From Cornus controversa (Eukaryota > Streptophyta > Magnoliopsida > Cornales > Cornaceae): DNA of 64,000 nt. The translations under genes were made by a program, and so were the position numbers. Positions within the stretch are counted from its first letter, which is position 1. Each line of letters opens with the position of its first letter. The stretch spans positions 107,148,533-107,212,532 of the forward strand of contig CM048845.1 of NCBI GenBank assembly GCA_026545225.1, read 5' to 3'. Positions 1,253-50,240 of the stretch are shown here, in pieces. The notes under the pieces are model-generated. The model had not been told where the DNA came from and ran no database searches. It was given only the letters and a program-made list of their open reading frames with translations.

Positions 1253-1314
1253 TTGGTTCTGAACCACTTGAGAAGCAGTCCTGTACCGTTCACGTATCAA
1301 TCTTCCTGGTTCAC
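1253..1314 (-). CDS. Activase-like gene, exon 6
   Basis: It encodes EPGRLIRERYRTASQVVQNQ, the stretch just before Walker B in this family. The acceptor is ttttaacag/GTGAACC and the donor is CAA/gttaga, a weaker site. It ends in phase 0. Confidence 0.92.
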
Positions 1315-4300
1315 CTGTTAAAACAAGGGTTTGTATAAATAAAATCTTACGAGTACAAGATAGAATTAAAAATGTGAATTAAATCTTGTCTTAATTTTTA
1401 GAAATAGTCTTATTTGGGAAGTAATGCTTTATAGGAGATTGAAAAGAGAAGCATGCATAAATGTAACACCATACAGTACTCAAGATAGTATCTTGGAGAA
1501 ACAGTTCCAATTTACAAACAAGTCAAGATTTATATGAAAGATCAACGGATGGTAATTTATTCATGGATAGTCTCTTTGTTCCTTTTATATTCAGCATCTA
1601 TTGTTTGTTTATTTGTTTTTTCTCTTCTTTTTTATTTTGGATAGGTAATAATATTTTCAGCATCTATTGATCAAAAAGAAAAATCAACTACTCGAAAAGA
1701 AAGAACTCTAGAAAATTGAACACAACCCCACCCACCATTCCTTTACTAGTATCACCATGTCCATTTACTAGTGAATAGTGATGGGTTTAAATTGTAATAT
1801 GATAAATGGAGTCAGTTTTGTTCTACTAAAGATGCATGCAGTGAGAAATTAGGCCTAAAAAAGCAATATCTTTCGAAGGAGGGGCGGACAACTCTTATGA
1901 AGCCTTTTGAATCTTCCAACCTACTATCTCTCCATTTTCAGGTTCCTATCTCCGTGGTGAGGAGAATTGAGAAGTTGCGGCGGAACTTCCTGTGGGGTGG
2001 TATGGGAGATGTGCCCAAATACCATCTTGTGAATTGGGAGCAAGTTTGTTCGTCCCTCAAATCAGGTGGGTTGGGCATTAGGAGAGTGGAGATGTTCGGC
2101 AAGGCCTTGCTTGGGAAATGGTTATGGAGGTTTGGTGCAGATAGATCCAAGTTATGGAGAAGGGTCACCGTCAGTAAGATTGGGGAATGCAGGGTTGGGT
2201 GGTGCTCTCCTGAGGTGAGACAGGCTGCTAGGGTGGGGGTTTGGAAGAATATCCGGAAGGTGTGGGATGAATTCTCCAAACACATTCGCTTCAGGGTGAG
2301 GTGTGGGAGGGGGATTGATTTCTTGAATGATGTGTGGTGTGGGGATAACCCACTAGCGTCCACCTATTCGCGTCTATATCGAATAGTTGTGGACAAGGAG
2401 GTGTTGGTGGCCGTCTGCTATCATCTTGATAGTGGGAGGATAGTGTGGGATATTCAGTTTGTGAGACCTTTTCAGGGTTGGGAGCTAGGAGATATTTGTG
2501 AGCTTTTGGTTGTGTTGTACAGACAAGAGGTGGGAGGGGACGGGCTTGATTCTTTCTTGGCACTGGATGGAGTCTAGCCATGGGATTTTTGAAATGCAAT
2601 CCTTCTATAGGAGATTGATGATTACTCGAGGGCCTTTTTTCCCTTGGAAAGCAATGTGGCGCACCAAGGCTCCTCTTAAAGTGGCTTTTTTCAGGTGGAC
2701 AGTGGTTCTAGGGAGGATTTTGACTATTGATAATCTAAGGAGGTGGCGTAAGATTATTGTCAATTGGTATTGCATGTGTAAAAGAGATGAGGAATCTGTT
2801 AGTCATCTTCTATTGCATTGCTCGGTTGCTTGTGATTGTTGGGCTATGGTTTTTGCCTTTTGGTGTCCTTTGGGCGGAGTCCCCGTAGAGCATGCTTGAG
2901 GCTTGGAGAGTGTGTGCAATGAGGGGCAAGTCCGAGATGCTTGGAGGGTGGCACCCCTTTGTTTATAGTGGGGGTTGTGGTGTGAGCGGAATCGCCAGTC
3001 TTTTGATGGAGTTGAGGCTCCGACAAGGATGCTTAAGTTCTCCATTCTTTATACTTTATTTTTTGGGTTCAAGGTTGGAATTGTAAATCAGTGGAGAATA
3101 TAGTGTCTTTTGTGGATTCTTTGAATATATAGCGGGCCATCTTGGTCTTGCTTCTCCTTGGGATGCGCTCCCCTTTGTGCTCTTTTTTTAATGAAATCTT
3201 ACTTATCGGAAAAAAAAATAGGGCTCTTCTTGATAATGGTTTTAAAGGTTAAATGTGGGATCCAATTGCTCTTAGAATCAATTAATTGTATCAAGGTATT
3301 AGGGGTGCACAAAAAATCCGCAAATCCGTGAATTCGATCCAGACGAATCCAATCCGATCCGTTAGCTAATGGATTGGTGGCGGATTAAAAAATTAAAATC
3401 AGTTAGCCACGGATCGGATTGCGGATTGGAGGGTCAGAAATCCGATCCGATCTGTGGCAATCTGTGGCAATATATTTATATATATAATTAGTAATTATAT
3501 GTATAATAATATAATATGCTACATACTTACATGGGTAAACCTAAAAACTCAATATATATTATATTTGTTTATTTAACAATTGTGTTCATTTAAAAAGTGT
3601 TGTGTTTGTTGATCAATTTTTTTTTTGGAATTTTTGAAGTAGAAAAAAAATTTTCAAATAGGAGTACTAGGCCAATCCGTCAATCCGATCCGATCCGATT
3701 CGTTCAATCACGGATCGGATCGGATCGGATTGGTGTGGATTGCCACGGATCTGATCGGATTGGATTTTCTCCGATCCGTAATCCGCGAATCGGATTAGGA
3801 TTATGCAAAATCCGATCCGTGGTCACCCCTACAAGGTATGGTAATGCTAACGCATGGGTTAGTAAGGTCGGCTTAGCCCATTGATGGGTGAGGTTATGGT
3901 AAAACAGGGTGGGGTGGTCTTATGATCCATTGGACCGAAAATTATGTCTTCCAATAAAGATTCAGGGTGATAACAGGTGAAGATCACATTTTGGAAAGAG
4001 CGATAATGTGGAGATGCCCCATTAGTTTTGTTATTTCTAGCTTTCTTTGCCATAGTAATTGGCAAGATGTGATATATAGTGGGAGATTCACAGATAAAGC
4101 GCACTTATTTTCATACCCAGCTCATTATCTTGATGACCAGATTAATGACAGGAGTGATGCTTGTCAAATATGAAAGGTACCTTTTCGGTTAGATCTTTCT
4201 ATTCTTATCTAGCCAGAGCCTCGTAACAATTTGCAATTTAAGAAATTTTGAAACCACCAAAAAGATTTTACCTGGCCTACAATTTTAAGATAGCGCTGAG

Positions 4301-5294: not shown

Positions 5295-8200
5295 TTTCAA
5301 CGGTTCCTAAAATTTGGAACCGAAACTGGAACCGTAGTGAACGGTTTGGTTCAATTCAAATTCAGTTCTTTATGGTTCCACCGGTTCTTTGTGCACACCT
5401 AGTTACTATGTTATAATAAGGCTCCTGCCAAGTTTTCTTGATGATCACTACGAAATTGTTAATTTGGAACCGGAACCGATTCCAACGGTTCCTTAATTTT
5501 GGAACCAGAACCGTTGAATTCGGTTCGGTTTCGGTTTTTTACAGTTCTTTGGCAACCCTAAGAAACATAGTCCTTTTAGATTTTCTTCTGGAAATAATTT
5601 TTTAAAGCAAAATACTTGAAATGTTAATAAAGTTTACTATAAAACTTAACATAAAAGAAGAAAAAATGTTCTATTTCAAATCTATAAGGCAAACAAGAGT
5701 TCTTATAATATAAAAAGAACAGTTCAATTTTATATGTCAAACATGAGTTTTAAATCTATACGAGTATATACCATCTATTAACCCAACATTCAAGGCCATA
5801 GTTCAATTTTAGAAATGAACTAAAACATATTCCTGAATAACTTAAAATAGTAGAAGCTTAATATTAGTATTTATTTATGTATTATATATTATATATAAAA
5901 AGAACAGTAAAACTTAGAAACTTAGTATTTATTTATACATATATTATATATATATAACACAATAGAACTTAGAAGCTATTAGCATTTATTTATATATTAT
6001 ATATATATATATATATTTTCAACGGTTCTTTATGCACCCCTAGTTACTATGTTATAATAAGGCTCCAGTCAAGTTTTCTTGATGATCACTATGAAATTGT
6101 TACTGTTCTAGGCTGTAAGAATCCTTTTGCTGGGAACTTCTCCTACATGTTTAATGAAATTAATCAATTATGAGGGAAAAAGATGTCAATTTTCTTAATT
6201 TGAAAATTTGAAATTGAATAATAAAATTGCTAATATCTGAAATAAAGTATAAATTTGATTAATTGTCCCCTCAAACACAAAACATGTGACTGTCAGTAAA
6301 AGTAATTTAGTATTCTACTGAATAATTCCTGCAAGCATAACTCATTTGAACAGCTTAAATCATTAATCACTTCTCACAAAGAGGAGGAGGGAGGGGGTGG
6401 GGAGAGTCAATTTGCATAAGCAAGTGCATTTGCTACTTGCTAGGAACCACCTTACCAGCTCTATCTGATTCCAATTCCCCAGCAGACATGATAACAGGTT
6501 CAATTCCCATGGCCTGGAAAATAAGTTCAGTTTGAAATGACTTCCCTTGCCCTTTTCCTCCCCAAATGCCTGTTAAACAATATGGCACTGTTAAATTGCT
6601 TTGTTTTCAGGAAATTTGTTCAAAACATATGGAACCATACCAAAAAAAAAAAAAAAAACTATCCCGCTCATGGAAAAATACACATCCATATCTCAACTAA
6701 AATAGCACTACTGTTATCATATGTATGAGAAAAAAAGAGCCAAATATTTACTGATTTAATTATTACAAAAGTATTCAAGTCCATGACAGATAAGTAGAAA
6801 ATAAAACTAGATTTTTCAATGCGCAAGTATGAAAATGGCTCATCAGAAGAGCATGCTCTAGCTGACAATATGAAAATGAAAGAACAACAACTAACTCATC
6901 ATCATCATCCTTGCCTTAGTCCCATATGAATGGGGTAGGCCAAAAGAACAACAAACAACTAGGAAGTATTAAAGTATTTGAGATAAACATATACACATAT
7001 GTACACACACACACACACACATATAGAGAGAGAATATTATTATGCACATCTGTAGCCATCTTATTCTTTATACAACTCTTATAGTGACCTTTGGAAAATC
7101 ATTGTGAATATTTACCTAGAATCAGAGGAACTTTGGTATTGAGAAGATGAGCAATGTAGTTCTTCACAATATGGCATACTGCATCAATAGTAAACCATGT
7201 GGGAAAAAAAATGTCAGAGCAACTAAGCAACTTTGTTATTGAGAAGATGAGCAATTAAATCTCTCCAATGGCAGATAACAAAAAACAACCACCATGCATC
7301 AAATTATGCGAGCAGGATTGCTAGTCTGTAGGTATCATTTGATAAGTAAAACAAAGCATGGCAGAATCCAATAACAAAGGTAATTACTTATCCTACCATA
7401 TTAAGGAAAAAAAACATAAATATGAAAATTTCCACTACAAGCCTTTAATATTGAAGAATCCCACCACAACATTCTCGAGGACAGCAAGGACCTTGCTTGT
7501 CTAGGACTTTGTCATATTATATGTAACTTGAACATTATGAACAACCATAAAATTGATGAATATAAAGGTATAAATACTACAATCACAACTACATTTGATG
7601 ACATATCAGTACAGATTGGATACAAATAAGAACCCCCTGCTATGGTTCAGGTAGTGAGATTATTTGACTGCTGCACTTTTCTATGGATTCAAATTAGATC
7701 CATCCTTGTATATCGTATAATTTCAAACCATTATACATCCATATAGACTTATATATACACATATATAAATAAAGGTGCCTATCAATTCAATAATCACTAG
7801 AGTGAAACATATCATAGTGCATACCTCACTTAATGTTGATTCCAGGCTCCACTTCTCCCTTTTTAACTACAAAGATTTCCTCCACTAATAAATATTAATG
7901 ATTGTTGAATTATCAAATCAGTTTTCTGTGAGTGTTGACTTTGACATAATTGCAGTTAATTATGATTGAGGGCTGAAGAATTTTTGTCGTGCAATAAAAA
8001 TTAATAAAAACTATACCACAATTAATTATCCCCCAGCTATGCTATACCACAATTCAGATAATAATGCCAAAGTGAATCAGTTTCGGCACCAGCATCCAGG
8101 CAATATACCATGAATAAAGTCTGGCTAAAGCTGAAGACAAACTTTCCATAAGGGGCCCTCGCAAATAAAACATGCTTCCGATACCCAAATGAGAGAACAG

Positions 8201-11200
8201 ATGGAGATTCTTCCATATAGAAGCTAGAATGCTAAATTTTGGACTCTAAGCCATAACAAAATTCTAGAAAGAACATATTCCCGGCTCTTCATTGCTTATA
8301 GATATTTGTAAGTAAATAAAAGGTGCCTTATCACTATTACCATGCTTGTATCACTATCAATTTATGCCCTTTACAAAATGAAGGGAACAAAAATAAAATG
8401 GATAATTTCACCAACCTTCACCACCAATTCACCAAAGGTCTATCCTAGTGGTATCACCTCACCTTTCAAAGTGAAAGTTCTAGCCTAGTTGGGTGTGTGA
8501 GTTATTTGCGATAAAAAAATAAAAATAAAAAAGAACAAAATTACACCAACCTTGCTTGAGGTTTTCTATAATTACATGGGAATAGAACTTGCACATTTAT
8601 TACACTTGTATCCCCAACCAGAGTTTGTCAGGTACGCAGTGTTAAACAAGCTCATAGAAAATGACATTTATATCCTTGTCTTACTTCATTATTTCTTATA
8701 TTAAAAAATGGAACAAGTTGCTCGTAGAAAATGATGTTTATATCCTTGTCTTATTTCATTATTTCTTATATGAAAAAATTTAACAAGTCACAAAAATAAA
8801 CGAATTTGCCTCCCTGCCTTGTATTTTCTCTTCCATACCCTTCTCTTTCTCTCTAAAATTTCTCCTCCATTCTCTCTCTAAAATTCTTACTTTCTCCACC
8901 ACCACCACCACCACCACCACCACCCATGAATCGGCCATTTCCTTCCACTACAATCTTCATCACCCGACTCATTCCTCTCCAAAATTATTTGTCTTTTCCT
9001 TCTACCCCTGCAAATTAGAGGACCAATTGTTCTCAAGTTTCTTCACATCGGGCAAATTAAACCATCAACACTATTATAGGTTTCTATTGGACCATTCTAA
9101 AGTCAACAAACTACACAGTCCTCACTCTACTTTCTGTAAATATGTTTACATTTCTTTAAAAATCTCTACCTTAACTTTAATTCCAGAGAATTTGATTAAT
9201 CAATATTGTTAATTGCAGAGAACATAGGAGCAGTCACAACAAGAGTTGGATGATGTTACTCAGCAACCAAAGTAAAATTTGATTAATCAAATTCTACCCT
9301 CAGCTCAAGTTTAGGCGCAAAAATTTTGCAGGCACAGACTCTTGCCCAAACTCATAATTCATCGGCATCCACCACCAATTCAAACCAACAGCTTCTCCCC
9401 CCCATCAATGCTCCTGCACCGGACACTCCCTCGATCTAAATTATTGTCAGCATTAATCTCGACCATTGTTACATCGCCTTCTTTTTAGAAACTGTTGGTT
9501 GGTTTTGAGTGGAGGTGCTTATGGTGGTGAGATACGGTTGAGCAATGGCGAAGGTGGTGATTGGAATCCATTGAAGACGTTGAATAGATAAGAGAAAGAC
9601 GAGAGACAGAGTAGACATTTTGTTTTATGGAGATTATGTTGGTAATGGTATTGATAATAACTGTTGGCTAGATTTTGACAGAAATTGTAGGAAATTGCAA
9701 CATAACTTGCAAAATTTGAATTTGCAAAATAAGAATTCTAACACTATTAACTTTGCAAATTCTGTAAATTGATTTTGAAAATGTTAACTAAATTAATATG
9801 TAATTTTTTTAATTCTACATTTAATAGTATAAATAACAAGATATCAATAAACTTTGTGATTACAAATTTTACTTTAAATTAAAGTGAAATTAATTTCAAA
9901 CATAGGTTAAATGTAATTCAACCTAAATGTAATATACACGTATAAGTAAAAAAAAAAATGTGTCTATTAAAAATGTTGGGTATATTTATCCTCTGAAGAA
10001 TATTATTGAATGGACAAAGTAGTCATTTCACATGTTTAACTAATGCTTCGTTTGGTACAAATGATGGAAAAGTGGGATGAAAGGAGAGCAGGAATGATGG
10101 ATAAGGCATCCCTAGGAAAGGATATGAATCATTCTCCCTTTTGTTTGATTGAATGGAAGGGAGTGCACGGAGGTGACACATTCTATTGTTTGATAAGAGG
10201 GAAGTTAAGGAGAGTTTTTTATGTTTTACCATTATACCCTCATTATATAATTTGACAAAAACTGATGAAGGGTAATAATATCACTTTACATAATATACAA
10301 CACTTATCCTTCTCTTCCCTCCTTTCTTCCATCTAATTTTGGAGGGATGACCGGGCCTCCTTGTCTCTTGTTGGGTTATTTCATATTACATGTCAAGTTT
10401 ACAATCCCAACGTCAAGGGTTCAAGGCTTGGTAAAGGATGAAAAGGAAAATTTTGGTGGGATGAAAAATGATGGGCCAGGAGGAATGCCTCATCCACCCA
10501 TCCTTCCCTTCCCTCCAACTCTTCGCCATACCAAACAATGGATACTTGCTCCATTCTTCCTCTCTTCCATCCTTTCCCCTTACTTCCCTCCAACCAAACG
10601 CAGTGTAAGACATCAATCTTTTAGACGAAAAGGACATACCCAACATTCGGACAAATTTCTTGTAATGGTCCTAGTGGCCAACTAATAGTTTTCTTGAAAG
10701 TCTACAAAACCATGAGAAGTCTTCAATACAATGGTGATATCATATCATTTTGCTGATGTGGTATCACTAACCAATTATTTTATTATATGAGCACATGAAG
10801 CCCACTCAATACAAGTATTTGATTACATGGCAGTTAATTTAACATTTATGCATGTATTAGGTGGGTCCTATAACATACGTCAAGTTGTAATTAGTACGTG
10901 ATACCATGTCAGGATAATGTCATGGTATCACCACTGCATTGAAATTTTTCCTAAACCATGACGAATAGACTGCAAGAAATTGAAAATTCTTTGCATAATT
11001 ACAAAAAATGTTAGGGTTTATATATAAACTTATGGATGAATCTCAAATAGAATTATATATGACATATACAATTGCACAAGGAAAAATGAGATTAGCAAAC
11101 AACATCAATATTTATAGTATGATTGTTCTTGCCCTGTCCAAGAATTAGGAAGGGAAAAAGAGATTGAAGTGTAAACAATCAATCACCTTGGTTATCAATC

Positions 11201-14200
11201 GCTGACCAGGTTAGTGTAGAAGTTAGGTTACAGGAAACAAGGTCAAATAAATGACGCAAGACAACTTGACACTCAGACCAAGAGGGTATAGAAGTAGGAT
11301 GGAAAAAGGTGGTAAAGGAGGAGGAGAAGAGAGTGCCAGAAGATAGGAAAAAGGACTGCCAGAATTCTTTGCCTTGACATTCGGACCGTACAACTATTTA
11401 TAGAGGTCCTAACACACCTTTAGGTTGAGAATCAGATTTCCCTTAAGGGTCGCCGATCATTTTGCCCGACCTGTGTCAACCCGCCCTAACGAGCCCCTCC
11501 TTCGATCCTACATGCCTTGACAGACCCTCCTTCCCACTTAGGACCATGACACTTAGCAACTAGTTTCACACCATGGCCACCTAGGCTTGTGAAATTGCAC
11601 ACCTATGCTCACAGCCCAATTATTTGTATCTTGACTTCAAAGAATTTCCCAAAGTGCATTAAGAGGGTGTCAAGGCTCACCCTGTGCCTGATTCACTTGT
11701 GAGAAATTAATATATGCCTCAATATAAATCATGGCCGTGGAAGTCATCTTTATGGATCACAAGATCCAGCGTGGAATTGTACCTTGGCAGTGACCTCACG
11801 AGCCTACCCGATTGTCTTGGTAACGTCAAGGCGGGTTCTTGTCACACTTGAGCTGCACTTCCTGTTAGCTCATATATCTCCTGTTAGCTCTTCTATATGG
11901 TGTGTTCTCATGGTTACAGGGGTGTACCGAGAGTCTCTCACCTCGTACACCCCTCCCCTCCCTCCTTCGTGGAGTTGCAGGAATGGGCTTTCAGGCAAGA
12001 ATCTTCAAGACACACCCGCATATGGATTCATCCTAAATCTCAAACTGGAGAGGGCACCCCTTGCAGCCCTCCCTGTTCTAGTGCTTGCAGGTGGATTATG
12101 CTTCGTGAGAGAGAGATCTAGCAGGTGTCGGGTGTCCTCATGGACAAATCTGCTAGGTACCTCATGACTAGGCCCTTGTTGCTAGCCTTTGAGTCCCTTT
12201 GCTGATGGCTGTGAGTTTGGGCACTCTTTACAGTTAGCAATTACATGTTTAAAGAGGTCACAGATGAAGATGAAGATGAAGATGAAGGTGAGGGTAAAAG
12301 ATTATAAAAAGCACCTAAGAATTGGGAGCTAGGGAACATTGCTTGGTGCACTGGTAAAATGCGGGCTCTCAAGTTTGAGATTGCAAGTTTGAATCTTTAG
12401 ATTAGCCACTTTGTGTAATGCCAAAGCCTACGTATGTATCCAATCCATCCTCCCAGCCCCCTCAATTAACTGGACCACACTAGGTAACGACCCTTTTGAC
12501 CTAAGAATTCGATGCTGTGGAATGAAATAATTTATAAAATATATGTTGACAAATAAATTTTCTATGAAAGAAAGATGGATTGTGCAGAACATTAACTAGC
12601 AGATTTAGTTGTAACTGTCTATTGAGAAGGAGAAAAATGCATAGCAAGTGGCTATTGATATGACTTTTTCTGACAGTAACAAACATAAAGATAAACTTCA
12701 GATCGAGCAATGACTATTTCAGTCATTTTTTAACCCGATTTCTTGCCGCTTCAAATGATTCATCACAGTTTCTTTCCCATTGAATAGACACCGAACTTAC
12801 CAACTTTATCCTGTCAAATGAAAATTAAACACAGAAGAGGAACATTACGTGTCAAGATAGCCAATAATAGGTTAACAAGATTGGTAATCAAAACAGTGAT
12901 ATACATTCATGAACTAGAAAGTAAACTACATAAATAAATAAGGTACTTCATTCTTGCATAGCATCTAAAGCAAACGGAAGAGACAATCAGTAAATCTCAA
13001 TCAAAAATGAATTAATACATAAATGCAACAGTGTAAAAGAATAAGGTATACTGGCGATATCAGTTATTGTTGTACAGGCAGAAACTCTGATACCAATTGT
13101 TGCGTCGCAAAAGTGCATTCAAACCCAAAAGCCAATAACAAAAAGCAATAGAACATATGAGGAAAACAATATTTAACGTAGTTCGGGAAAACCTCTCTAC
13201 ATCCATAGATGAGAAAATATTAATCCACCATACATATATATATATATATATCTATATATAAATAGAGAGAGAGAGAGAGAAATAATAATAAATAAAGAAT
13301 GTCCTCCCCATTTTCATACTCCCCAATGTCTTTCCCCATTTCCATACTCTCCTTCTCCATACTCCTCTCTAAAACAATCTCTGCTTCTCTGCCCACAGGT
13401 GTTCTTTCCGTCTCTCCCTCACAACTCTAAAAATCATGTGAAATTTCATAAAATCTCTCTTATGAGATGATATCTTTTTCATAAATCTCAAGCAATAATC
13501 TAGATATCTAGTTATAAAGTGTAACCTAAGTTCCTTGTTGGACAAGGTATACAATTGACTCAAGGAAACATCCAACAAGAATCTTCTATTAAGAAATAAC
13601 ACTAAAATGGAAACTTAATTACAGTTGGACTTTAAGACCATCCGGCAATCTCCACTCAGCTCAATTTCCATCAAGCCAATAATCACTTTTCTTATTGCAA
13701 TCAATTTTTGACCATTGTGATCAAACACAAACTGATTGATTAACTTCATCTAACACTAATATTTTAGTAATTGTTTTTAACTCTTCTTGCTTTTTCCGGA
13801 TCTCACAATGACTTATTCAGATAGAATCATGAAACTAGAATTGATCATAGCCATTGATGCACCTCGACCAATCTAACCAAAACCTGATCACTCAAGGACC
13901 CACTGTAGTGAACATAAAAGTTCCACCTTGACTTTGGCCAGTCCGATGCATATTGGTCCACTCCTTACATGAAGCAGACAAGCTAGTCCGGATGGTTCGA
14001 TCCAACAACCCATATAGCCTTCAGAAAAGGACCCTTTGCAATATCTCTTACTAACAAACTTTACAGGAGGAACCTCCTAATAGATAACAGTGATTGTCAA
14101 GGCAGAAGCTCCATATAAGTTATTGTACCCTAGAAGCACATTGACATTGAGATCCATCCACTAACAAGAAAAATTAAACCTACAAGGGAAATAATATTTA

Positions 14201-17200
14201 ACATGGTTTGGTCAAACATGCTTACACCCGCAAAGGGAAAGAGAGATTAATCCGCTATATACTATTGAGAAATTACAATGGGCACAAAATACACAACACC
14301 AAAAATCTGACACCAATAATCAAGCTTTGAAACAATTTCATTCCCCTCTTCAGTGTACTTGAATCCTGAAACAATTTCCACTTCCCTACTCACACCCTCT
14401 GTGGCCTGAGTCTTGTTCACAAACCCATCTTTCTCACAAATTGATTCTCTAATCAGACTAAATTTCTCTCGCGAAACTACATCTTTCTCTTAAGTCTCCA
14501 ATAATAACTTATAGAATCTAAATCCACATTCATTCTTAGACAAGAAATATAATTTCTTATAACTCAAGTAAAACATCAACTAACAACTTCCCCCACAGAA
14601 AGAACTTTAAATGGTAACCTAATGATGCAGGACACAAAGGGCTAATAATACTTAGATACCAATGATAAAGAACCAGAGAGAAAGAAAGGGACGAGAATGA
14701 GAAAATGAGATAAGGCTAGAAGAAGGAGATGAGAAGACAGACAAAGAGGGTAAGAAATCAGACTGAAGGAGGTAGGCTAGAGGGACTAAGAGGATGAGAA
14801 AAGCAAGAACAATAAGGGAGAAGAGAAGATACAGAGACAAGTTCGCAAACTCACAATATTATTTCAATAATCAAAGCTGATTATTCGGAGCCTTTATATA
14901 GGCAAAACATAAACAAACCCTAAAATAATAAAATACTAAAATATCCCTAAAAATAAAACATTAACAAAAATATCAATGAGCATAAATATAAACCCTAAAA
15001 TATAGGCAAAACATAAACAAACCCTAAAATAATAAAATACTAAAATATCCCTAAAAATAAAACATTACCAAAAATATCAATGAGCATAAATATAAACCCT
15101 AAAATATAGGCAAAACATAAACAAACCCTAAAATAATAAAATACTAAAATATCCCTAAAAATAAAACATTACCAAAAATATCAATGAGCATAAATAAAAA
15201 CCCTAATTTACTAAAATTCCTAATTCTATCTTTCTTTTCCCCTTCTCCAATAGTACTTGCGAGTCATATACAATTCCAGATCTTGCGTCGTGCCTTGGTC
15301 TCCATCACCTAATCACGGTAGAATATTGAGAAATAATTCCTAAAATCTACAATCACATGCGATCAAATAAATATTGGTCAAGGAACTTGTGCAATGAAAA
15401 GGCAAACTTGATATACTTACCACCAAGGGTTGTAGCTTAGTGGTATCTCTTCTACCTTTCAAAGTGCAAGGTCGGGGGTTCAAGTCTCATTAGAGACAAA
15501 ATGGGCATGCGAGTAATTTGCTAAAAAAAAAAGTAAAAAACTAGGTACACTTGGTGCCCGTTTGTCGTTACTAACTAAAAGCGCTTTTAAACACATTTAG
15601 AAGTGTTTGGTAACAAAAATAAAATAAAAATCACTTCTTAATTGTAGAGATTTTGGCTCAGTTGAACTTTTAGCCAAAACTAAAAATTCGAGCCTTTTGC
15701 AAATAGAGGCAAAAAATAAATAGTTAGAGTCTATGTATAGAAAAAGAATATTTATAAAATGTGCTTTACATGCTGCGTTGCCAAACACTATTTGATTTTT
15801 TTTATAAAAAAAACTCTTTTTTAACAGCCCTACATCATCCTCATCCTTGCACAAATATGGATGGGGTCGGCCACACTTTTTCAACAGATCTACATGGGGG
15901 GGTGTTTGTAGGGGAAGTGCTTATTTTAAACAAAAGCAACGCCATGGTTAGCTTACACACCTTGGATGGGGTCAGCCATAGTTAGAACTGGCCCTTTTAT
16001 TTAAATTGCAAGTGTATAAGGCCAGTTCTAACTATGAAAGCGCATGCGACACCAAAAGGACTATTTAGGGTAACAAGTAAGATTTGTAGACCTGTTTTCA
16101 TTTGTTAATAGACCCTACAGCTTTATGAATAGACTTATCAAATGATTCTGACATAGCATCCAAATTTGAATTTCTCTATGAAAAGCAAGATGACTTTCAC
16201 TAAAAGAGTTGAAAGATTAAAATGATACATGCTATTCAAAATGAAACCACGTAGCTCCCAGCCTCCCGCACAGCAGTGTTAAGGAGAGAGAATGAATCCC
16301 AAAATTGAATGAAAATCAAAACACTGGAGTTAGCAGAAGTTATAAATGCAAGATATAGATGGACACTGCAGTAACTGCATGGATCTTAACAGTATCTTCA
16401 AAGTTCTCAACACTGTCAAAAAATTTCCAAGAACTAAAAAGATAGCTACGAAATGAATACTCAAAAGTAACACAATGCCTAGTAACCCAAGCCCGAAAAA
16501 ACCCAACAACCCCAAGTAGATATGATGTCCTTAGCTTCAACTATTAAATCCCAAACTTAAGAAGATAGCACAATTAAAGATAATTTAGTAGTAACAATGG
16601 ATAAGGAAATTATCAATGTGACGAATGTCATTTGCCAATAAATCTACAACTCGGGGTTGTAAAAGTAGAATGAGGATGATAATTAACTTGAAATGCATTA
16701 GACAAGGTGGAATTTAATGGTTATGCATATGTCAAACCACACAAAAGGTAACATTTCATAGTCATCGATGAAATGTTAAGGAAGATGATGCTCAAAAATA
16801 AAAGCTGGATGGACAAACTGGAGATAATGGTCTAAATATTTTAGCTAGTAAAATAGTATGAAATTATTAGGTTTCCAGTTATGTAGAAAATTGCTAGTGT
16901 ATTTTACATAACAGAAACTCTGCCAATAATTCAGTGACCAGCTCATAGTAAGTGCCATACGATAAAAAAATAAGAAAAATTTCCCCTGAAACTCCAATCA
17001 ATTTAGAAAATATATAACACTTAGAGAGGGAAAAAGGCAAGGATGATGATGATGATATAACACTTAGAGAAACTTCTAAATCTGACAACACTAATTGATC
17101 CCAATGAGGGCAAGAAATGGAATTTAGCTGAACAACAATGTAGCACCCTTGATTTTATAATCAATATATATCAAAATTTTCCTATATTCAAGAATATCTT

Positions 17201-18016
17201 GGTAATTTGAGACAAATTCTTTCAGATAATAGTTAGTAGTGAAAGATCAATGGATTCATTTTAACCATATCTGATCTTGGGAGTTCAGCTTGAGAACTCT
17301 CCCATTCATGCTATAGTTTGTATCTTGAGTTTCAAAACCATTAAATCCTTATTTTGAGAAGTAACTCTGTACTTGGAAGCATTTAGTTCCATCTCAAATT
17401 CTTGTTTGGTGTTACTTGTAATTATGAATTTTTTTTATTTATTTCTATGAAGGTGCCTGCAAAAGCACATCACCTAACAATTAGAAGGAATACATGTACT
17501 TTTATGCAGGCTTCGTCCTCTTATTGGTTGAAACGGAGATGAATGTTGTGTTTCAACACAAAACATGACCAATCCCTAAACTATAGACGCATGCAAAGAA
17601 CTGCACAGAGTGAAATGATTTTTTTATATATATACACAGGGAGGCAACTGATTACATAACATAACAGCTATACAAACAATTCCTTAAAAGGCCACTAGTT
17701 ACTTTTGAACTTCTGCACACTTTTTAAGTTAATAAAGGTGGACTCTATTGAAAGTGTCCAAACTAGTCTTCAACAAGGTATTGTGTCAACAGGTCTCCAA
17801 TATGCCAATCACCATCAGAGAGAAGGGAATAGTGGAAGACAATATCATAGTTTTTTTCACATATTAAATCAATAGTGGAAGACAATTTACAGATTTTCCC
17901 TTTGTTATAAAGTTACAACATAACATACATGGATAGTCTCAAAGCGCACTTTTATAGGTAGATTGAAGCAGTTAAACTTGAAAGCAAAGTAGATATAGTG
18001 AAGTACAATCAAATGA

Positions 18017-18050
<34 letters not shown>

Positions 18051-19144
18051 AAACTAAACGTAATCAAGTAACATACCATGAAAGCAGGAGCGATGTAATA
18101 ATCGCCCTGAAGATACTCAAATGACCTGGTTACCTTCTGACGGTAATCAAACACAATATCCGCTGCAATGCATAACAAAAAAAATCAAACCCTAAAAGGA
18201 TGTACAAGAAAATTGAAACCAGAAACCATTTTGGTAACCCTAGGATACAAAAGATGAAAAGATTCACCTCAATTAGGTCATACAATGACGATACATTAAG
18301 GAGCTATTTGATAAAACTGGGGAAAGAAATGTACTGAAAATTATAAGAGTTGAACGGAATTTTAAGTGCAATTGTAAATTAACAATTTTTTTAATACTTG
18401 TCTAAATTTGAAGTGTTCTGATAGGTAAAGTGTTAGAGTGACAAATGAAGTCTCCCTCATTTAAGATTTTATATCATTTTAAGTGAAATTTATACTTTTA
18501 AGTGGTATTTAAATTGCGTTATCAAACTTAACGCGCAGTTAATTTATTGAGAATTAAATACTAATTGCATTATTCTTTTTCTTTTTTCCTAGTTGAAACT
18601 CAATTCAACCTCGACCTTCTTCTTTTGGAAGGAGAGGAAGGATACAGCCCTTTGTTAATCGTGTTATTCAACGGCATCTAAAAATATAAAATTTTCAGTT
18701 GTTTATTTTCCTTCATTTTCTTGGCAACCAATGGAACACGGGACTCGAAGAAAATCACTCACAGTCTCGCCCAAGAAAATTGCCGGCGAAGAGGTCATCG
18801 ATGATGCCAGCCCTAGCACCGACGGCGATGTTCATGTTATCCGCCTCTTTGCCGAGCCTGTAGAGATAATCATTCCCCTCTGCGTCCTTCGTTTCCCACG
18901 ACGACTGGTCTGACAGTCTCTTCTTCGTGGATTTCTCTGATTCTTCACTGTTGTCTTCGTTTCCATTAGAATTCGTCAATGAACGGACAAATAAAGGAGA
19001 AGAATTGAAGATTTTCTTGAAGGGAAGGAGCGAGAATCTGCTGAACTTGGTAAATTTAGAGAGAGAAGAAGAAGAAGATCGGAAGGACAGAGAAGTGGAA
19101 ATGAGGTTGAGGTCTGTGCCTATGAAGCTGCAAGAAAGAGCCAT
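1253..19144 (-). CDS. Rubisco activase-like chloroplast AAA+ ATPase, 5' part (6 exons, runs off left edge)
   Basis: Six exons join in one frame to give the first 239 residues: 19144-18763, 18162-18077, 12810-12801, 7178-7116, 6569-6456 and 1314-1253. Every junction is GT-AG. Residues 1-60 are Ser/Phe/Lys-rich with few acidic residues, like a chloroplast transit peptide. Then come the family block ending AVGARAGIIDDLFAGNFLGR (about 105-125), YLQGDYYIAPAF, CHIVKNYIAHLLNTKVPLIL, the Walker A motif GGKGQGKS (184-191, Lys190), and EPVIMSAGELESDRAGEPGR. This matches the plant Rubisco activase-like family (from memory, Arabidopsis At1g73110), whose members are about 430 residues, so roughly half is visible. 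Rubisco activases use ATP to remove inhibitory sugar phosphates from Rubisco; whether this divergent paralogue does so is not known to me. Walker B and later parts are off the window. The start ATG follows no nearer in-frame alternative. No disabling change was seen. Confidence 0.93.
1840..3220 (+). mobile_element. 5'-truncated, dead L1-type LINE (3' end of ORF2)
   Basis: The translation matches the C-terminal part of plant L1 reverse-transcriptase ORF2: KKQYLSKEGRTTLMK, then RRIEKLRRNFLWGG, GGLGIRRVEMFGKALLGKWL and WKNIRKVW, followed by the zinc-binding (zf-RVT) region FPWKAMWRTKAPLKVAFFRW and CMCKRDEESVSHLLLHC. The reading frame shifts near 2540 and again near 2890, and a further frame covers the tail. 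It ends in a short A-rich tail at about 3210-3220. The endonuclease and most of the RT are missing, as is typical of 5' truncation. It sits in an intron of the minus-strand activase-like gene, in antisense. Confidence 0.9.
3300..3831. mobile_element. Non-autonomous hAT-type element, 532 bp
   Basis: The termini are taggggtgcac and, inverted at the far end, taggggtgacc. The element is flanked by a perfect 8-bp duplication, caaggtat, at 3292-3299 and 3832-3839, which fits hAT transposition. The interior is made of degenerate ggatcggat-type repeats at both ends around an AT-rich core. No transposase is encoded. Confidence 0.85.
3840..4747. other. Intron without recognised features
   Basis: This stretch lies between two hAT-type elements, within the intron between exons 6 and 5 of the activase-like gene. 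No homology was recognised on either strand. Confidence 0.4.
4756..5401. mobile_element. Non-autonomous hAT-type element, copy 1 of a tandem pair
   Basis: The element starts taggggtgcacacggttcgg and ends ccggttctttgtgcacaccta. A perfect 8-bp duplication, gttactat, lies at 4748-4755 and 5402-5409. Subterminal ggttcc/ggaacc repeats are on both sides. It includes a (CA)n-(TA)n tract at about 5257-5294. Confidence 0.85.
5461..6042. repeat. Partial tandem duplicate of the hAT-type element with its flank
   Basis: It is a second copy of the element's body and 3' terminus, lacking the first 25 or so bases of the 5' end. It is followed at 6043-6100 by a copy of the flanking sequence found at 5402-5460 (gttactatgttataataagg and on). 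The offset is about 641 bases, so the element plus flank was duplicated in tandem after insertion. Confidence 0.8.
6456..6569 (-). CDS. Activase-like gene, exon 5 (Walker A)
   Basis: It encodes IWGGKGQGKSFQTELIFQAM followed by GIEPVIMSAGELESDRA. The Walker A Lys190 and Ser191 are present. The acceptor is ttgtttaacag/GCATTTGG and the donor is GCTG/gtaagg. Confidence 0.95.
7116..7178 (-). CDS. Activase-like gene, exon 4
   Basis: It encodes CHIVKNYIAHLLNTKVPLIL, flanked by the second and third bases of a Val codon and the first base of a Gly codon. The acceptor is ttgatgcag/TATGCC and the donor is CTAG/gtaaatatt. Confidence 0.9.
8419..8543 (+). repeat. SINE, family A, copy 1
   Basis: It has an A-box-like ctatcctagtggtatcacc, the family block cctttcaaagtgaaag, a 3' end gtgagttatttgcgat and an A-rich tail. 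It is flanked by a 10-bp duplication, caccaacctt, at 8409-8418 and 8544-8553. Related copies lie at 15421-15540 and, inverted, at 45693-45800. Confidence 0.75.
8898..8923. repeat. (CCA)n microsatellite
   Basis: About nine perfect CCA units lie inside an intron of the activase-like gene. Confidence 0.9.
10044..10605. mobile_element. MITE-like element with cgtttgg termini
   Basis: The left end tgcttcgtttggtac and the inverted right end cactgcgtttggttgg are similar. A TAA triplet flanks each side (10041-10043 and 10606-10608), as in PIF/Harbinger insertions. The interior has purine-rich and pyrimidine-rich halves that can partly pair. No transposase was seen and the superfamily is inferred. Confidence 0.5.
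11050..12335. repeat. Probable LTR-retrotransposon-derived sequence, decayed
   Basis: This block is GC-richer than the surrounding intron. On the minus strand it has a promoter-like ctctataaatag at about 11394-11405 and long stretches typical of plant LTRs. No terminal repeat pair or coding domain could be placed, so this is a weak fossil call. Confidence 0.3.
12340..12490 (+). repeat. tRNA-derived SINE-like repeat, family B
   Basis: It has an A-box-like cttggtgcactggtaaaatg and a B-box-like caagtttgaatc, followed by gccaaagcctacgtatgtat and gacccttttgacc, a body I associate with widespread plant SINEs. The ends are not fixed. Confidence 0.55.
12801..12810 (-). CDS. Activase-like gene, exon 3: 10-base microexon
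   Basis: The ten bases GATAAAGTTG sit between a good acceptor (ttttcatttgacag) and a strong donor (gtaagttcgg). They supply Asp-Lys-Val plus the first base of a Val codon, the family's expected MDKVVCHIVKN junction, and they are the only way found to keep frame between exon 2 (phase 0) and exon 4 (which begins with two bases of a codon). Confidence 0.85.
13065..13625 (+). repeat. LTR/TRIM-like repeat fragment, copy 1
   Basis: It contains caatatttaacgtagttcgg and then a pyrimidine-rich stretch. A diverged second copy lies at 14090-14600 in the same orientation. Plant LTR elements commonly carry such an aatatttaacgtggttcgg block. This is an old fossil and the family was not assigned. Confidence 0.4.
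14090..14600 (+). repeat. LTR/TRIM-like repeat fragment, copy 2
   Basis: It contains ataatatttaacatggtttgg and the same order of blocks as the copy at 13065, down to the final aacatcaactaac near the end. It is strongly diverged from that copy. Confidence 0.4.
14901..15205. repeat. Three tandem copies of a 104-bp AT-rich unit
   Basis: Units start at about 14901, 15005 and 15109 with ggcaaaacataaacaaaccc. They differ by only a few bases (for example acattaacaaaa versus acattaccaaaa), so the expansion is recent. It lies in the intron between exons 2 and 3 of the activase-like gene. Confidence 0.95.
15421..15540 (+). repeat. SINE, family A, copy 2
   Basis: The A-box-like tgtagcttagtggtatctc, the block cctttcaaagtgcaaggtc, the B-box-like gggggttcaagtctc and the 3' end gcgagtaatttgct plus an A-rich tail match the copy at 8419-8543. 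No target duplication was found. Confidence 0.7.
15550..18076. other. Intron between exons 2 and 3, near part
   Basis: A MITE-like segment at about 15556-15790 has cccgtttgtcgttactaac at one end and the inverse-like gctgcgttgccaaacac at the other. The rest is AT-rich intron with no gene recognised on either strand. A (TA)n tract sits at about 18018-18041. Confidence 0.4.
18077..18162 (-). CDS. Activase-like gene, exon 2
   Basis: It encodes DIVFDYRQKVTRSFEYLQGD and on to APAFM. The acceptor is cattgcag/CGG, where T from exon 1 plus CG makes Ser128. The donor is TTCATG/gtatgtta, leaving phase 0. The 600-base intron before it is AT-rich and has a weak MITE-like pair of gtttgataa motifs. Confidence 0.93.
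18763..19144 (-). CDS. Activase-like gene, exon 1
   Basis: It encodes residues 1-127 plus the first base of codon 128. It holds the transit-peptide-like start and the block WETKDAEGNDYLYRLGKEAD. The donor is GAC T/gtgagtg. Upstream, a TATA-like gttatatacatatatg lies about 130 bases before the ATG. Confidence 0.93.
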
Positions 19145-19735: not shown

Positions 19736-21325
19736 TCATGGTCTCTGGCAACCACCATGAGTTTGACTCCAAGCTGCTCCACACGCATAGCAAAACTGAG
19801 ACCCACACCTGCAACCACAAACAGCCATTCAATTAGATACATACATACATACATACATACATAGCTTGTTCAAAACTTTTAATTGGACAATCTAAATCTA
19901 AATCTAAGTATCTATTGTATGAATTTCTCAAATAGAAGATACAACATGCTGGGTTCAGGTTGCATTCTACACAAATACAAGTATGCTTCAAGTATTTGGA
20001 ATTAGGCTAGAAATAACCTAACTCTATAAATGGGGATCAACATAAAAACTATTGATACAATATGAAAGCTTCAAGCCAAACAAATCCAACCTGACCTTAA
20101 TCATGAGCCCAAATCTTCAACTCACATCTTAATTTGAACTTAGGTTTTACTCCAGTTAAAATCGGGCTAGAATTTGGATTGAGACTCAAGTATGATTCAG
20201 ATTTAAATTCAGATTCAACTCATACAGAAAGTCGAGTTGGATTCAGCTTCAACTCGAGTTATCAATTGGGGTTGAGTTTGAATTATCCAACACGCTCAAC
20301 CTAAATTAAATCAATGTTGATGATTCTTTTTTTTTTATCTAGGTTTCAAAAAATCTTCTCAAACATGTGAAAATTTGAGTTGTTTAGGATTGGCCTGCCC
20401 AAGCTCTACTGCTGCATAAATTCAACCTGTAAACATTGTGAAACAAAGCCCCCATACAGAAACAATAAAATTGAATTGTGAAATCTTAAAAGAATTGTAA
20501 ATAACCAGACCTGCAATTCATATGTAAACAACCCTCTGTTTTTTCAACAATATATTTGCAGTGTGGGCATTTCATCCACTTCTTCTCCTTAGCAAGCTCT
20601 CTCACCATGAGATCTTCTCTCCCTCTTTCATCCTCATTCAAGCTCTGAAACTCCTCGCACTCGATCCCCGGATGCCACGGGACATAACACTGCGCGCAGA
20701 ACAGTCTCCGGCACTCAGGACACTCAGACTCCCTGATCACTTCTCCAAAACTGTCATTAATCATCATGGCAGAGCAGTCCTTAAAAGGACAATAAAATAC
20801 TTCTGATTCCAACATCATGGACTCACACAACACTTCATCCCACCTTTCAACCACATCCCTTTGAATCATCGCCCTACAAGCATTGAGCTCTAGCACTCCT
20901 TCGCAGTCCAAACCCGGGCACATGACAACTCTCATGTTCTCTTGGATCTTGGTAAAAACATGTTTGCTTATGCAGTCAGAACAGAAGGAGTGCTGACAAG
21001 TTTGGTTGCTAAACATCTCATCAGTTTCTTTCTTTTCCACACAAATCTCGCAGAAGCTCTGCGATGATTCGCCAACTTCTTTTGAAATCGCCATTGCTAC
21101 TTCTGGGTTGGAAGCTGGAGTACTTTCTTGGATTGTCAATGGCACGGGATTGTTGCACATTTGGGCAGTGATCAAAGAGGCCATTACAGTCTCTTGGAAC
21201 TGCAGCTCTTCAGCATACTTCGAATCAGATATTGGGAGAATCTGATTTTCTTCAATTTCATCGAAGAGAGCTGAGAAGTAGAAGTCATCCACCAATTGAA
21301 CATCAGACATTGATTCTGTTGCCAT
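19736..21325 (-). CDS. RBR1: RING-IBR-RING E3 ubiquitin ligase, intact two-exon gene
   Basis: Exon 1 is 21325-20511 and exon 2 is 19808-19736. The 702-base intron is GT-AG (TGCAG/gtctgg ... ttgcag/GTGTGG) and the product is 295 residues. RING1: Cys92/95, Cys110, His112, Cys115/118, Cys136/141. IBR: Cys179/184, Cys202/205, Cys210/213, His218, Cys223. RING2: CPHCKYIVEKTEGCLHMNC, then exon 2 adds CGSQFCYACGAAW. By analogy with HHARI and parkin, Cys266 in GCLHMNC should accept ubiquitin from the E2. Residues 1-90 are an acidic plant-specific lead (LVDDFYFSALFDE, KYAEELQFQE). It ends just after RING2, with no membrane segment. The closest named relatives are plant RSL1/RNF144-like RBRs; the substrate is unknown. 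It lies about 600 bases upstream of the activase-like gene, same strand. Its intron holds an (ACAT)n tract near 19838-19862. Confidence 0.93.
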
Positions 21326-21560
21326 ATTGCACAGCTTATGCTTATGGTGGTGATCTTCCTTATCTATACAAATTATGCAGTCTGTCTGTAGATCATCATA
21401 TACAAATGAAGGGACTTGGAGTCATACAGTAGAGTCAGAGACTTGGCCTCGAAGATCTCTTCTTTCATTGGCAATCCTAAAGTGTCCTGGCTCCACCTTC
21501 TTGACTTCACTTCTGTACGGGTCATACTTTATCAATTGTAAAGGCAATTGTCTCAGAAAC
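21326..21560 (-). promoter_or_regulatory. Conserved 5' flank of RBR1
   Basis: A CCAAT box in the block ccaatgaaagaagag (CCAAT at 21471-21467) and a TATA-like tgtatatgatgat at about 21403-21391 keep the same order and spacing in front of RBR4, RBR5 and RBR6. Conservation between copies could be shared descent rather than function. Confidence 0.4.
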
Positions 21561-23603: not shown

Positions 23604-25401
23604 TCATGGTTGGCAACCACCATGATTTTTACTCCAAGTTGTTCCACATGCATAGCAAAACTCAAACCCACACCTGCAACCATAAACAGCCATTCACTTA
23701 GATACATACCTTGTTCAAAACTTTTATTCGGACAATGTAAGTATCTATTGTATGAATTTCTCAAAAAGAAGATACAACAAGCTGTGTCCAGGTCTCATTC
23801 TACACAATTATGGACAGAAACTGCCCAATTAAGGCATTGCCCTTTTATAAGTATCCTTGAAGTATTTATATATAGATATAATATATTATCTTCAAACCAA
23901 ACAAATCCAAGTTATCCAACTAGACCTTAAACTTGAGCCCAAGTCTTCAACTCATATCTTAATTTGAATTTAGGTTTTACTCAGGTTAAAAACAGGTTAG
24001 AATTTGGATTGTTCCGGGGTGAAACTCAAGTAGGGTTCGGGCTAAAGTTTGGTTTGGGAAAAAAAATTAACTTTCATCCACAAAATATAAGCATCAAAAC
24101 AGATATATGTGCACAATGTAATGTGTTATAATGTACTAATACACACACAAAATAAAGTCTGAGTTGGATTCAGCTTCAACTCGAGTTGTCAATTAGGGTG
24201 GAGTTCGGGTTATCCAACTCTTCAACCTGCTCTTCCTAAATTAAATTTAAGTTGATGAGTTTTCAATCTGAGTTTCAAAAACTCTTCTCAAACATGACAA
24301 AAATTGAGTTGGGTTACAAAGACCCATACAGCAACAATGATACTGAATTGAGAATTCTTAAAAGAATGGTAAATAACCAGACCTGCAAGTAATATGTAAA
24401 CAACCCTCTATTTTTTCAACATAATATTTGCAGAGTGGGCATCACTTCCAGTTCTCCTTAGCAAGCTCTCTCACCATGAGATCTTCTCTCCCTCTTTCAT
24501 CCTCATTCAATCTCTGAAACTCCTTGCACTCAATCCCGGGATGCCACGGGACATAACACTGGGCGCAGAACAGTCTCAAACTCACAGGACACTCAGACTC
24601 CCTGATCACTTTTCCCACACTGTCATTAACCATCATGGCAGAGCAGTCCCTGAAAGGACAATAAAATTTTTCTGATACCAAAATCATGGACTCACACAGC
24701 ACCTGCTCCCACCTGTCAAGCACATCCCTTTGAATCATCGGCCTACAAGCATTGAGCTCTAGCACTCCTTCTCAGTCCAAGCCCGGGCATGTGACAACTC
24801 CCATGTTGTCTTGGATCTTTGTAGCAACATGTTTGCTTATGCAGTCAGAACAGAAGGAGTGGTGACAAGTTTGGTTCCTAAACATGTCATCACTCTCTTT
24901 CTTTTCCACACAAATTTCGCAGACTTCTTTTGCAATCTCCATTGGACTTTCTTCACCCAACAACGCAAGGTAAATATTTATGTGGTTCGGTGTAAAGCTT
25001 ACGTTGGGGACGTCTGTGCTGAAGATCCTGCCAAAAATTTTAATTACAAGTTTCATCTTCAAAACCCCCTCTCTGGCACTCTCGACTTTCAGTGTTATCT
25101 CATACTAAGTTTCATCTCAAATCCTATCTCACTCAAAACCCTAGACGCTCTTGTATACCGTGCTAAAACCCTATACGCTCTTGTATATCCTCTGCTAAAA
25201 GAGAGTTCTAGAAATGGTCTATGTCACCAAAAAACGGCTCATACAAAAATATTTTCTGGGCTGCATTATGCGACTCCTGCCGAAACAAAATTTGTACCAC
25301 AACTTCCCATCTTGGAACTGCACCTCTTCGGCATACTTAGCATCTGATATTGGGAAAATCTGATTTTCTTCATTTTCATGAAAGAGAGCTGAGAAGTAGA
25401 A
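23604..25401 (-). pseudogene. RBR2: decayed RBR E3 ligase gene
   Basis: Exon 1 homology runs 25401-24383 and exon 2 is 23673-23604, with a GT-AG intron. Exon 2 reads CGFEFCYACGTTWSKNHGGC, and the RING1 block CEICVEKKESDDMFRNQTC is clear. Damage: the start codon and first 14 or so codons are deleted (5' flank joins directly to FYFSALF); a retrotransposon-like insert of about 363 bases lies at 24946-25308 with loss of host sequence; TGC became TGA at the last RING1 cysteine (CPGLD-stop-EGV); AGA became TGA before RING2 (NWK-stop-CPLC); and one codon is missing in AKENW. It cannot make an RBR protein. Confidence 0.92.
24946..25308 (-). mobile_element. LTR-retrotransposon fragment inside RBR2
   Basis: RBR homology stops at 25309 and resumes at about 24945. 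The segment between includes cgaaccacataaatatttac, a block common near the 3' end of plant copia-type LTRs, and reads like a solo or partial LTR. No coding parts remain. It is younger than the RBR duplication, since the sister copies lack it. Confidence 0.45.
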
Positions 25402-27819: not shown

Positions 27820-29379
27820 GGGAAAATTACATTCACCTCCCTTGTAAATAGGCGAAATAACAGATACCTCCTGTAGTTTCAAAAATAATACTAACCTCTC
27901 CTGTCAGTGTTGTCGGTTGACTAATAATGTTAAAAGACAATTATACCCATGTACTTTTTACTATATTTTATTTAAAAATATCTAATAATGTAAAAAAACA
28001 TATCTACCCTTTCACTTTAACCTATTTTTTCTCTCCTATCTCTACATTTTCTCTCTCTAATTGAAGGTTAGCCAACTGGCAAACTGAGAGGATATTCTAG
28101 AGGAATCCAGCAATCGAAGGGTGGTACTAGCCCTGTATGATGCCTTAAGCGCTCGAGACGTCGATACAGTCCACAAACTTCTCGCCCTTGACCTCGAGTG
28201 GTGGTTCCATGGTCCGCCGTCCCACCAGTATATGATGCGCCTGCTCACCGGCACTGCCTCGCCGCATGACTCATTCGAATTCACGCCACTCTCCGTCACC
28301 GATATCGGATCCAATGTCCTCGTCGATGGTGCGGTCACAGCCGTTCGATCTCTTGGAACCTTTCCCTCTTTTCTTTCGGTGCCCAACACCTCGACATCTC
28401 AGTCCGTCCGGTGCCTTTTTTTTTTTTTTGGTTTTTCAATTTCAAATTTTCATGGCAATTGTAAAGAAATGAGAGAAATTAACTCTATATATATATGGGT
28501 ATATATATATATATCCCCAAACTATGTCTCTCTCTCTCTCTCTGTGTATATATATGTATGTATATATATGTGTGTATAAATATATAGTATTATATCCCCA
28601 AACTATGTCTCTCTCTCTGTGTATGCATATATATATGTATATATATATCTGCGTGTGTATAAATATATAGTACTATATCCCCAAATTATGTCTCTCTCTC
28701 TGTGTATGCATATATATATGTATGTATATACATAAGACGCTCTCACAAAATCAAAATCAATTTTTACTTTACTTTTAGAGACTTCGCGTTTGAGTAATCT
28801 CTCTATCTCTCTCCTTACACACATACACGCACAAGCATAGATTTCATGTTGATAGATTTTTTCAATAATTTTTATTGAATTCATTTTGATGATTTATTAA
28901 CATTTTCACGCTCTTTACGCTTTATGATCTTGAACAATTTTCTCATTGATTTTGATATTCATGTTTTTGCTTTGCATTTACGTTCATGTTGGCAATTGAT
29001 GAAATCGGTTGATTCGCAAATGCTATTAGATTCCAGTTATTTTGTTCATTTTCAGAGACATCGTAATATATATATGTATGTATATACAGTGCTATATTTT
29101 GTTGGGGAAAAATAATGATGATGAATAGTAGGGGCAAAGTTGTCCACAAATAATATATTAAATGAGGGTATTTTAGTCCTTTCATATATTTTAGGGATAT
29201 TTTGGAATTTTCAGTTCAAATATACAATGACATCATCAAATTTCGTACCTGCACCACTGACAGGGGAGGTCAGTGTTACAAAAGGTACACTGACAAGGAA
29301 GGTCAGTGTTATTTTTAAAACTATAGGGGAGGTATCTGTTATTTCACCTATTTACAGGGGAGGTCAGTGTAATTTTCCC
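27820..29379. mobile_element. Pack-MULE-like element, 1560 bp
   Basis: The terminal inverted repeats are about 88 bases long (27820-27907 and 29292-29379). Both begin gggaaaattaca and contain aaataacagatacctcc. The flanking 9-mers are ttgaaaata (27811-27819) and ttaaaaata (29380-29388), the size of Mutator target duplications. No transposase is present. The interior carries a fragment of a host gene similar to wound-induced protein 1, plus several near-repeats of tatatccccaaactatgtct at 28510-28690. Confidence 0.85.
28088..28355 (+). pseudogene. Captured fragment of a wound-induced protein 1-like gene
   Basis: One frame reads VVLALYDALSARDVDTVHKL, then LEWWFHGPPSHQYMMRLLTG and FEFTPLSVTDIGSNVLVDG. 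This is the N-terminal half of the plant WUN1-like (SnoaL/NTF2-like) fold, a small cytosolic protein family of unclear biochemical role induced by wounding or senescence. The family's following part (a SWVHAWTVTDGIITQ-type stretch) is absent; after about 28355 the frame runs into unrelated sequence and a T-run. There is no ATG at the expected start, and a TGA lies in frame at 28085. The GC content is far above its surroundings, as expected for captured exon sequence. Confidence 0.8.
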
Positions 29380-42422: not shown

Positions 42423-42631
42423 TATTGGAGATACAATTGAACCTAATCCTAAAGACACAGCGGTAACCACGATAACAAAAGGAGACTGCAACTGATATTT
42501 TGGGCCAACAACTTTGTTAAGTTGTGATAGTGTTTTTGATTTTTGAATAGCTTATATATAGAAGGAAGTTATGGAGAGTTTGTATTGAAATTTCTTTATC
42601 CATCAATTCTCTCTTTCAGTGGAGTCTTACA
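42423..42631 (+). repeat. 3' LTR of the copia fossil
   Basis: It is 209 bases, with the same ends as the 5' LTR, preceded by the purine tract ttgagggggcg. Confidence 0.93.
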
Positions 42632-44973: not shown

Positions 44974-45130
44974 ATTGCACAGCTTACTTTCCTTCCCTAT
45001 ACAAATTTTGCCGTCTGTATATCATCATATAAAATGAACTAATGACTTTACACTTTTCAAGATACTTGGCTTCGAAGATCTCTTCTTTCATTGGATGTCC
45101 TAAAGAATCCTATATTCTTCACCTTTTTGA
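44974..45130 (-). promoter_or_regulatory. Conserved 5' flank of RBR4
   Basis: CCAAT at 45094-45090 and a TATA-like tttatatgatgat at about 45033-45021 keep the same order as in front of the other intact copies. Confidence 0.4.
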
Positions 45131-50058: not shown

Positions 50059-50240
50059 ATTGCACAGCTTACCTTCCTTCTCTATACAAATTATGCAGTC
50101 TGTAATCTGTATATCATCATCATCATCATCATCATATAAAATGAACTAATGACTTTACACTTTTCAAGAGACTTGGCTTCGAAGGTCTCTTCTTTCATTG
50201 GATTTCCAATAGAATCCTACAGACTTCACCTTTTTTACTT
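50059..50240 (-). promoter_or_regulatory. Conserved 5' flank of RBR5
   Basis: CCAAT at 50201-50197 sits in the shared block ccaatgaaagaagag. A TATA-like tttatatgatgat follows at about 50139. A run of ATG/CAT triplets (50113-50135) has expanded between the TATA-like site and the gene. Confidence 0.35.

Follow-up and report, generated by a model that had tools for sequence, protein, structure and literature searches.

Coding microexons of 1–15 nt have been described across plants, and Yu et al. 2022 report 2398 of them in ten plants, about half of which are not a multiple of three in length, along with 45 conserved clusters, each defined by a size, a phase and a 36-aa tag shared by three or more land plants (PMC8831610). 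According to the same survey, introns upstream of plant microexons are prone to detention, and removal tends to start with the downstream intron: among 69 microexons of Arabidopsis, sole-downstream reads in the absence of sole-upstream ones were seen for 16 and the opposite for 4, and downstream reads were more numerous in 32 of the remaining 49 (PMC8831610). Two-step intron removal, downstream first, has been reported for the 9-nt exon of potato invertase (PMC4674806), and GRP20 is reported to promote the inclusion of plant micro-exons, many of which carry GA-rich motifs (PMC10808074).

The minus strand of the 64-kb stretch of DNA analysed here (the window) carries six apparent coding exons, seemingly the first ones of a Rubisco activase-like plant gene, and the third of them is a predicted exon of only 10 nt:

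Exon 1, 18763..19144, minus strand: 382 nt, starts at ATG, donor gtgagt; from conceptual translation.
Exon 2, 18077..18162, minus strand: 86 nt, APAFM at its end (phase 0), donor gtatgt; 3′ end aligned to solved Rubisco activase (Rca).
Intron 2, 12811..18076, minus strand: 5266 nt, gtatgt...tttgacag.
Exon 3 (predicted microexon), 12801..12810, minus strand: 10 nt, GATAAAGTTG, D-K-V and the first base of V.
Intron 3, 7179..12800, minus strand: 5622 nt, gtaagt...atgcag.
Exon 4, 7116..7178, minus strand: 63 nt, its first two bases being the rest of the split Val codon.
Exon 5, 6456..6569, minus strand: 114 nt, carries GGKGQGKS.
Exon 6, 1253..1314, minus strand: 62 nt, 3′ border uncertain, weak donor (CAA followed by gttaga).

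Joined in conceptual translation, the six exons give 239 residues with no stop. The serine-rich N-terminus encoded by exon 1 looks like a putative plastid targeting peptide, and GGKGQGKS in exon 5 is what we take to be the Walker A stretch. The weak donor of exon 6 (-1.0 kcal/mol) makes its end less certain than the other borders. The gene is cut at the low end of the window, and later exons should lie beyond it. Introns of more than 5 kb are long for plants, and we counted the length of introns 2 and 3 against the microexon reading.

The 10-nt exon resembles the coding microexons of 1–15 nt collected from plants (PMC8831610; MEPDB, PMC12409088) in being internal and coding, in adjoining a conserved domain and in having canonical splice sites, and, like about half of them, it is not a multiple of 3 (PMC8831610); it differs from these published cases in being a prediction from genomic sequence. 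The 9-nt microexons of plant acid invertases (GH32) and AP2 genes are likewise tiny, encode residues of a conserved motif and are often unannotated (PMC8831610). However, skipping of the invertase and AP2 exons keeps the frame, whereas skipping of the 10-nt exon shifts it.

To compare the junction with proteins of known structure, we searched the PDB sequences (E ≤1e-5) with the end of exon 2 joined straight to CHIVKN, omitting the four junction residues. Three distinct sequences were matched, all named Rubisco activase (3t15, E = 1.7e-32; 4w5w, 4.1e-31; 6z1d, 2.9e-22), which places the peptide in the Rubisco activase family, and all three inserted exactly four residues at the junction: DKLV, DKLV and DKLA. 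We take 3t15 to be from tobacco, 4w5w from Arabidopsis and 6z1d from a cyanobacterium. In the alignment of the window peptide with the three solved chains, D and K are invariant at the junction (4/4). The window peptide shares with the solved activases (PDB 3t15/3zw6, 4w5w, 6z1d) the pattern APAFM-DKxV-xHI-KN and the Walker A region, being 69, 67 and 56% identical to them across 90 aligned columns, but has one extra residue after the helix (YIAHLLN vs FLxLPN). This one-residue difference presumably fits an At1g73110-like paralogue of Rubisco activase, and we know of no demonstration that such a paralogue activates Rubisco. On the basis of this single residue, the gene would tentatively be placed in the At1g73110-like branch. 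At1g73110 has been named AtRCA1 in a tomato paper, and its poplar homologue is termed an AAA-type ATPase in a heat-response study (PMC4036403). The gene peptide narrowly passed the Pfam AAA model PF00004 (21.6 bits against a cut-off of 21.2), because the domain is cut off, and stayed under the cut-offs for Torsin (19.9 vs 27) and DUF220 (13.4 vs 29.4).

The phases of the flanking exons are consistent with a missing piece of this size. Exon 2 closes with the codons GCT TTC ATG directly before gtatgt, and exon 4 opens, after atgcag, with TA-TGC-CAT; sequence and translation thus agree with a preliminary description of this DNA, in which exon 2 ended in phase 0 at APAFM and exon 4 began with two bases of a Val codon. 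That description had also stated that direct joining would break the frame, as it does: exon 2 joined to exon 4 reads APAFM-YAIL-stop in a shifted frame, with the stop in the fifth codon, followed in the part of the gene inside the window by 224 nt of exons 4–6 and two further junctions. The loss without the microexon, given there as Asp-Lys-Val, does include these three residues, but the piece conserved in the family has four, and the frameshift and stop come in addition. On the minus strand, 12810 to 12801 and its flanks read tttgacag, GATAAAGTTG, gtaagt, i.e. an internal 10 nt between AG and GT (cag before, gtaagt after). With it, exons 2, 3 and 4 stay in frame as APAFM-DKV-V-CHIVKNYIAHLLNTKVPLILG, and the spliced reading that includes GATAAAGTTG is APAFM-DKV-V-CHIVKNYIAHLLNTKVPLILGIWGGKGQGKS, with a second V whose codon is divided into G and TA by the junction of exons 3 and 4. 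Inclusion is required both for the frame and for the conserved residues, and the proposal of a 10-mer that restores the two is borne out by the sequence, the translation and the solved Rca chains.

Two other sources of the junction residues were rejected. Exon 2 extended to its first stop (VCYLITFSFPFF...) yields a read-through peptide without them, and they are absent as well when exon 4 is extended backward to the first stop (...PTWFTIDAV).

The 10,898-nt gap between exons 2 and 4 was then searched for open stretches of at most 60 nt that lie between AG and GT or GC and have a length of 1 mod 3. Of 671 such frame-repairing candidates, the 10-mer is the only one that ends in D[KR][LVIM]V, so that the earlier claim of a sole fitting sequence in the gap holds for single exons up to this length. 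A loosely similar triplet occurs in 29 open candidates, and just one of these ends in D[KR][LVIM]V; other small exons in the gap were rejected on this ground. On a wider scale, the pattern AG-DK[LVIM]V-G-GT had no second occurrence on either strand of the whole window, and the 19-mer CAGGATAAAGTTGGTAAGT had no further site in the window with up to three mismatches.

Such a match could in principle be fortuitous if the gene were a dying copy that had lost its true DKxV sequence, a scenario to which the decayed tandem duplicate of exon 4 that lies close upstream of it and the transposon-derived sequence in intron 5 would lend themselves. However, the six exons found are open and the comparable ones keep their conserved residues. 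Dinucleotide shuffles of the gap produced a DK[LVIM]V 10-mer in 15 of 2000 cases (mean 0.0075 per shuffle), and none of the 2000 shuffles combined one with a preceding CAG and a following GTA[AT]G. With a chance match expected 0.0075 times per gap, and in 0/2000 shuffles with such splice signals, we regard a dying copy as very improbable.

Independently of the coded residues, the splice signals of the 10-nt exon were ranked against other sites in the gap and the gene. Pairing of its donor with U1 is predicted at -8.6 kcal/mol; four of the 644 GTs in the gap pair more strongly, and one other GT ties with it. It also tops the five other scored donors of the gene, the nearest being that of exon 5 (-8.5 kcal/mol). 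When acceptors were ranked by T content before CAG, only 2 of the 74 CAGs in the gap were as good, itself included; by pyrimidine content, its own site is one of 66 YAGs, out of 628 AGs in the gap, that reach or exceed the same level. The acceptor is therefore good, not outstanding. A donor at least as strong together with a comparable acceptor was found for 3 of 442 open in-frame GT candidates, one of which is the microexon; the other two code AQV and ARTFTLKV, and the junction residues are coded by the microexon alone.

Exons 2 and 4 could alternatively be connected by another route, namely a 19-nt form of the microexon, a 7-nt exon or two still smaller exons. The 19-nt form, with its donor nine bases further on, would encode DKVGKFV, and the 7-nt exon GATAAGT (10308-10302) would give DKL; both are open and bounded by AG and GT. 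Yet none of the three solved Rca sequences has the three residues added by the longer form, the shorter form is one residue too short relative to these sequences, and routes through two exons are less parsimonious. We give any of these routes hardly any chance of being the true one.

Relatives in prokaryotes provide a further view of the junction, since they read through it uninterrupted and the spliced plant message should match them. With the four-sequence alignment as query, bacterial and archaeal genomes yielded 388 relatives, the best 80 of which were fetched; by title these appear to be cyanobacterial, except one (Tatlockia). After removal of one wrong-frame match, the 79 rows from the best 80 of 388 relatives carried DKLA (39), DKVA (16), DKLS (11), DRVA, DKIA and DRLA (3 each), and DRVS, EKLA, DKLV and NKLA (one each). 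Within this set of best-scoring relatives, the first residue is D in 77/79 and the second K in 72/79 or R in 7/79, while the third is L, V or I in all 79, with V, as in the window, in 20. The fourth is A in 66/79, S in 12/79 and V in 1/79 of these best relatives, and the V of the window matches the two plant-type chains. This mismatch to most bacterial relatives was counted against the microexon reading, even though the residue equals that of the plant-type chains. With the window peptide alone as query, no relatives were confirmed in bacterial or archaeal genomes, and two scans of viral contigs likewise confirmed none.

Based on the sequence, the phases, the splice consensus, the uniqueness within the gap and the fit to the four residues of solved activases and bacterial relatives, we propose with high confidence that a nuclear plant gene for a Rubisco activase-like AAA+ protein, putatively At1g73110-like, carries in these 10 bases a genuine coding microexon that is mainly constitutive. 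To include the 10-nt exon, the spliceosome would most likely take out the two flanking introns in succession, as an exon of this size is thought too small for both of its splice sites to be engaged simultaneously. Intron 3, downstream and with the strong gtaagt donor, would leave first, turning exons 3 and 4 into one 73-nt exon, and intron 2, upstream, would then be removed as the acceptor of this 73-nt unit is joined to exon 2. We favour this order because the good donor of the microexon fits it, as do the reports on plant microexons and potato invertase. Seven of the ten microexon bases are purines, which is at most a hint of a link to the GA-rich motifs associated with GRP20.

Transcripts that skip the exon would meet a stop in the fifth codon and would thus be candidate targets of decay. 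Inclusion of a real microexon could also be regulated, such that conditional skipping, for example with heat or in particular tissues, leads to the premature stop and to less protein. This possibility draws on the position of that stop, on GRP20 as a reported promoter of plant micro-exon inclusion (PMC10808074) and on a poplar gene, paired with At1g73110, for which a heat-response table gives a value of 0.38 (PMC4036403). A change of expression in heated poplar need not involve splicing, however, the strong donor argues for constitutive inclusion, and most coding plant microexons are reported with PSI >0.5 (PMC8831610), so that regulated inclusion appears unlikely. More speculatively, an undescribed and deeply conserved microexon could act as a fragile, possibly temperature-sensitive splicing gate, in which failed inclusion of the 10 nt across two introns of more than 5 kb causes frameshift and decay and the protein level is tied to inclusion; we consider such a gate distinctly unlikely.

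The 10-nt exon is not new in kind. The expectation that exons this small are easily missed and unusually spliced agrees with what has been published for plant microexons (PMC8831610), and the exon is very probably a new instance of the plant kind described there, judging from its sequence features. In the literature searched we found no account of a 10-nt Rubisco activase-like exon. The main text of PMC8831610, the cluster table of which is in the supplement, makes no mention of rubisco, activase, AAA, P-loop or At1g73110; the main text of the MEPDB paper (PMC12409088) does not mention rubisco, activase or AAA, nor does that of a rice micro-exon paper (PMC6600660) mention activase, AAA or ATPase. 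The exon may already be among the clusters listed in the supplement of PMC8831610. If the reading is true, annotations that leave out the 10-nt exon would misrepresent the beginning of the AAA+ domain and could make the gene appear truncated or like a pseudogene. The locus would also be well suited for testing how so small an exon is recognised between two introns that each exceed 5 kb. Beyond its value for annotation and as a test case, it would add one more instance to a known class.

Several other features were observed in and around the gene. Within intron 3, about 100 nt upstream of exon 4, lies a decayed tandem copy of this exon (7201-7300, minus strand), the core of which (7255-7226) shares 28 of 30 bases (93%) with 7155-7126 and has a three-base gap; AG acceptor and GT donor are absent at the matching places, and from its sequence the copy is a dead exon duplication beside the live exon. 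Intron 5 contains, antisense to the gene, a remnant of a non-LTR retrotransposon (2489-2899, plus strand; Pfam zf-RVT, E 4.1e-19), and an adjoining ORF (1798-2577, plus strand) had no Pfam match. Intron 2 includes three near-perfect copies of a 104-nt unit (14896-15207), 97-99% identical to the first.

Scans of the window for Rfam families (gathering threshold) and for tRNAs gave no match. Nine of 25 listed ORFs were scanned, and RING and/or IBR domains were detected on the minus strand at 20486-21421, 24772-25104 (RING part only), 44029-45021, 49302-50145 (two overlapping ORFs) and 52270-53217. By their domain content, these five stretches seemingly are tandemly arrayed genes that resemble RBR-type ubiquitin ligases. 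The plus strand carries pieces of a Copia-type LTR retrotransposon (38421-42495), with gag at 38421-38939 and reverse transcriptase at 41365-42495, and a stretch at 28088-28579 that resembles wound-induced protein WI12 / SnoaL-like domains at scores under Pfam's cut-offs.
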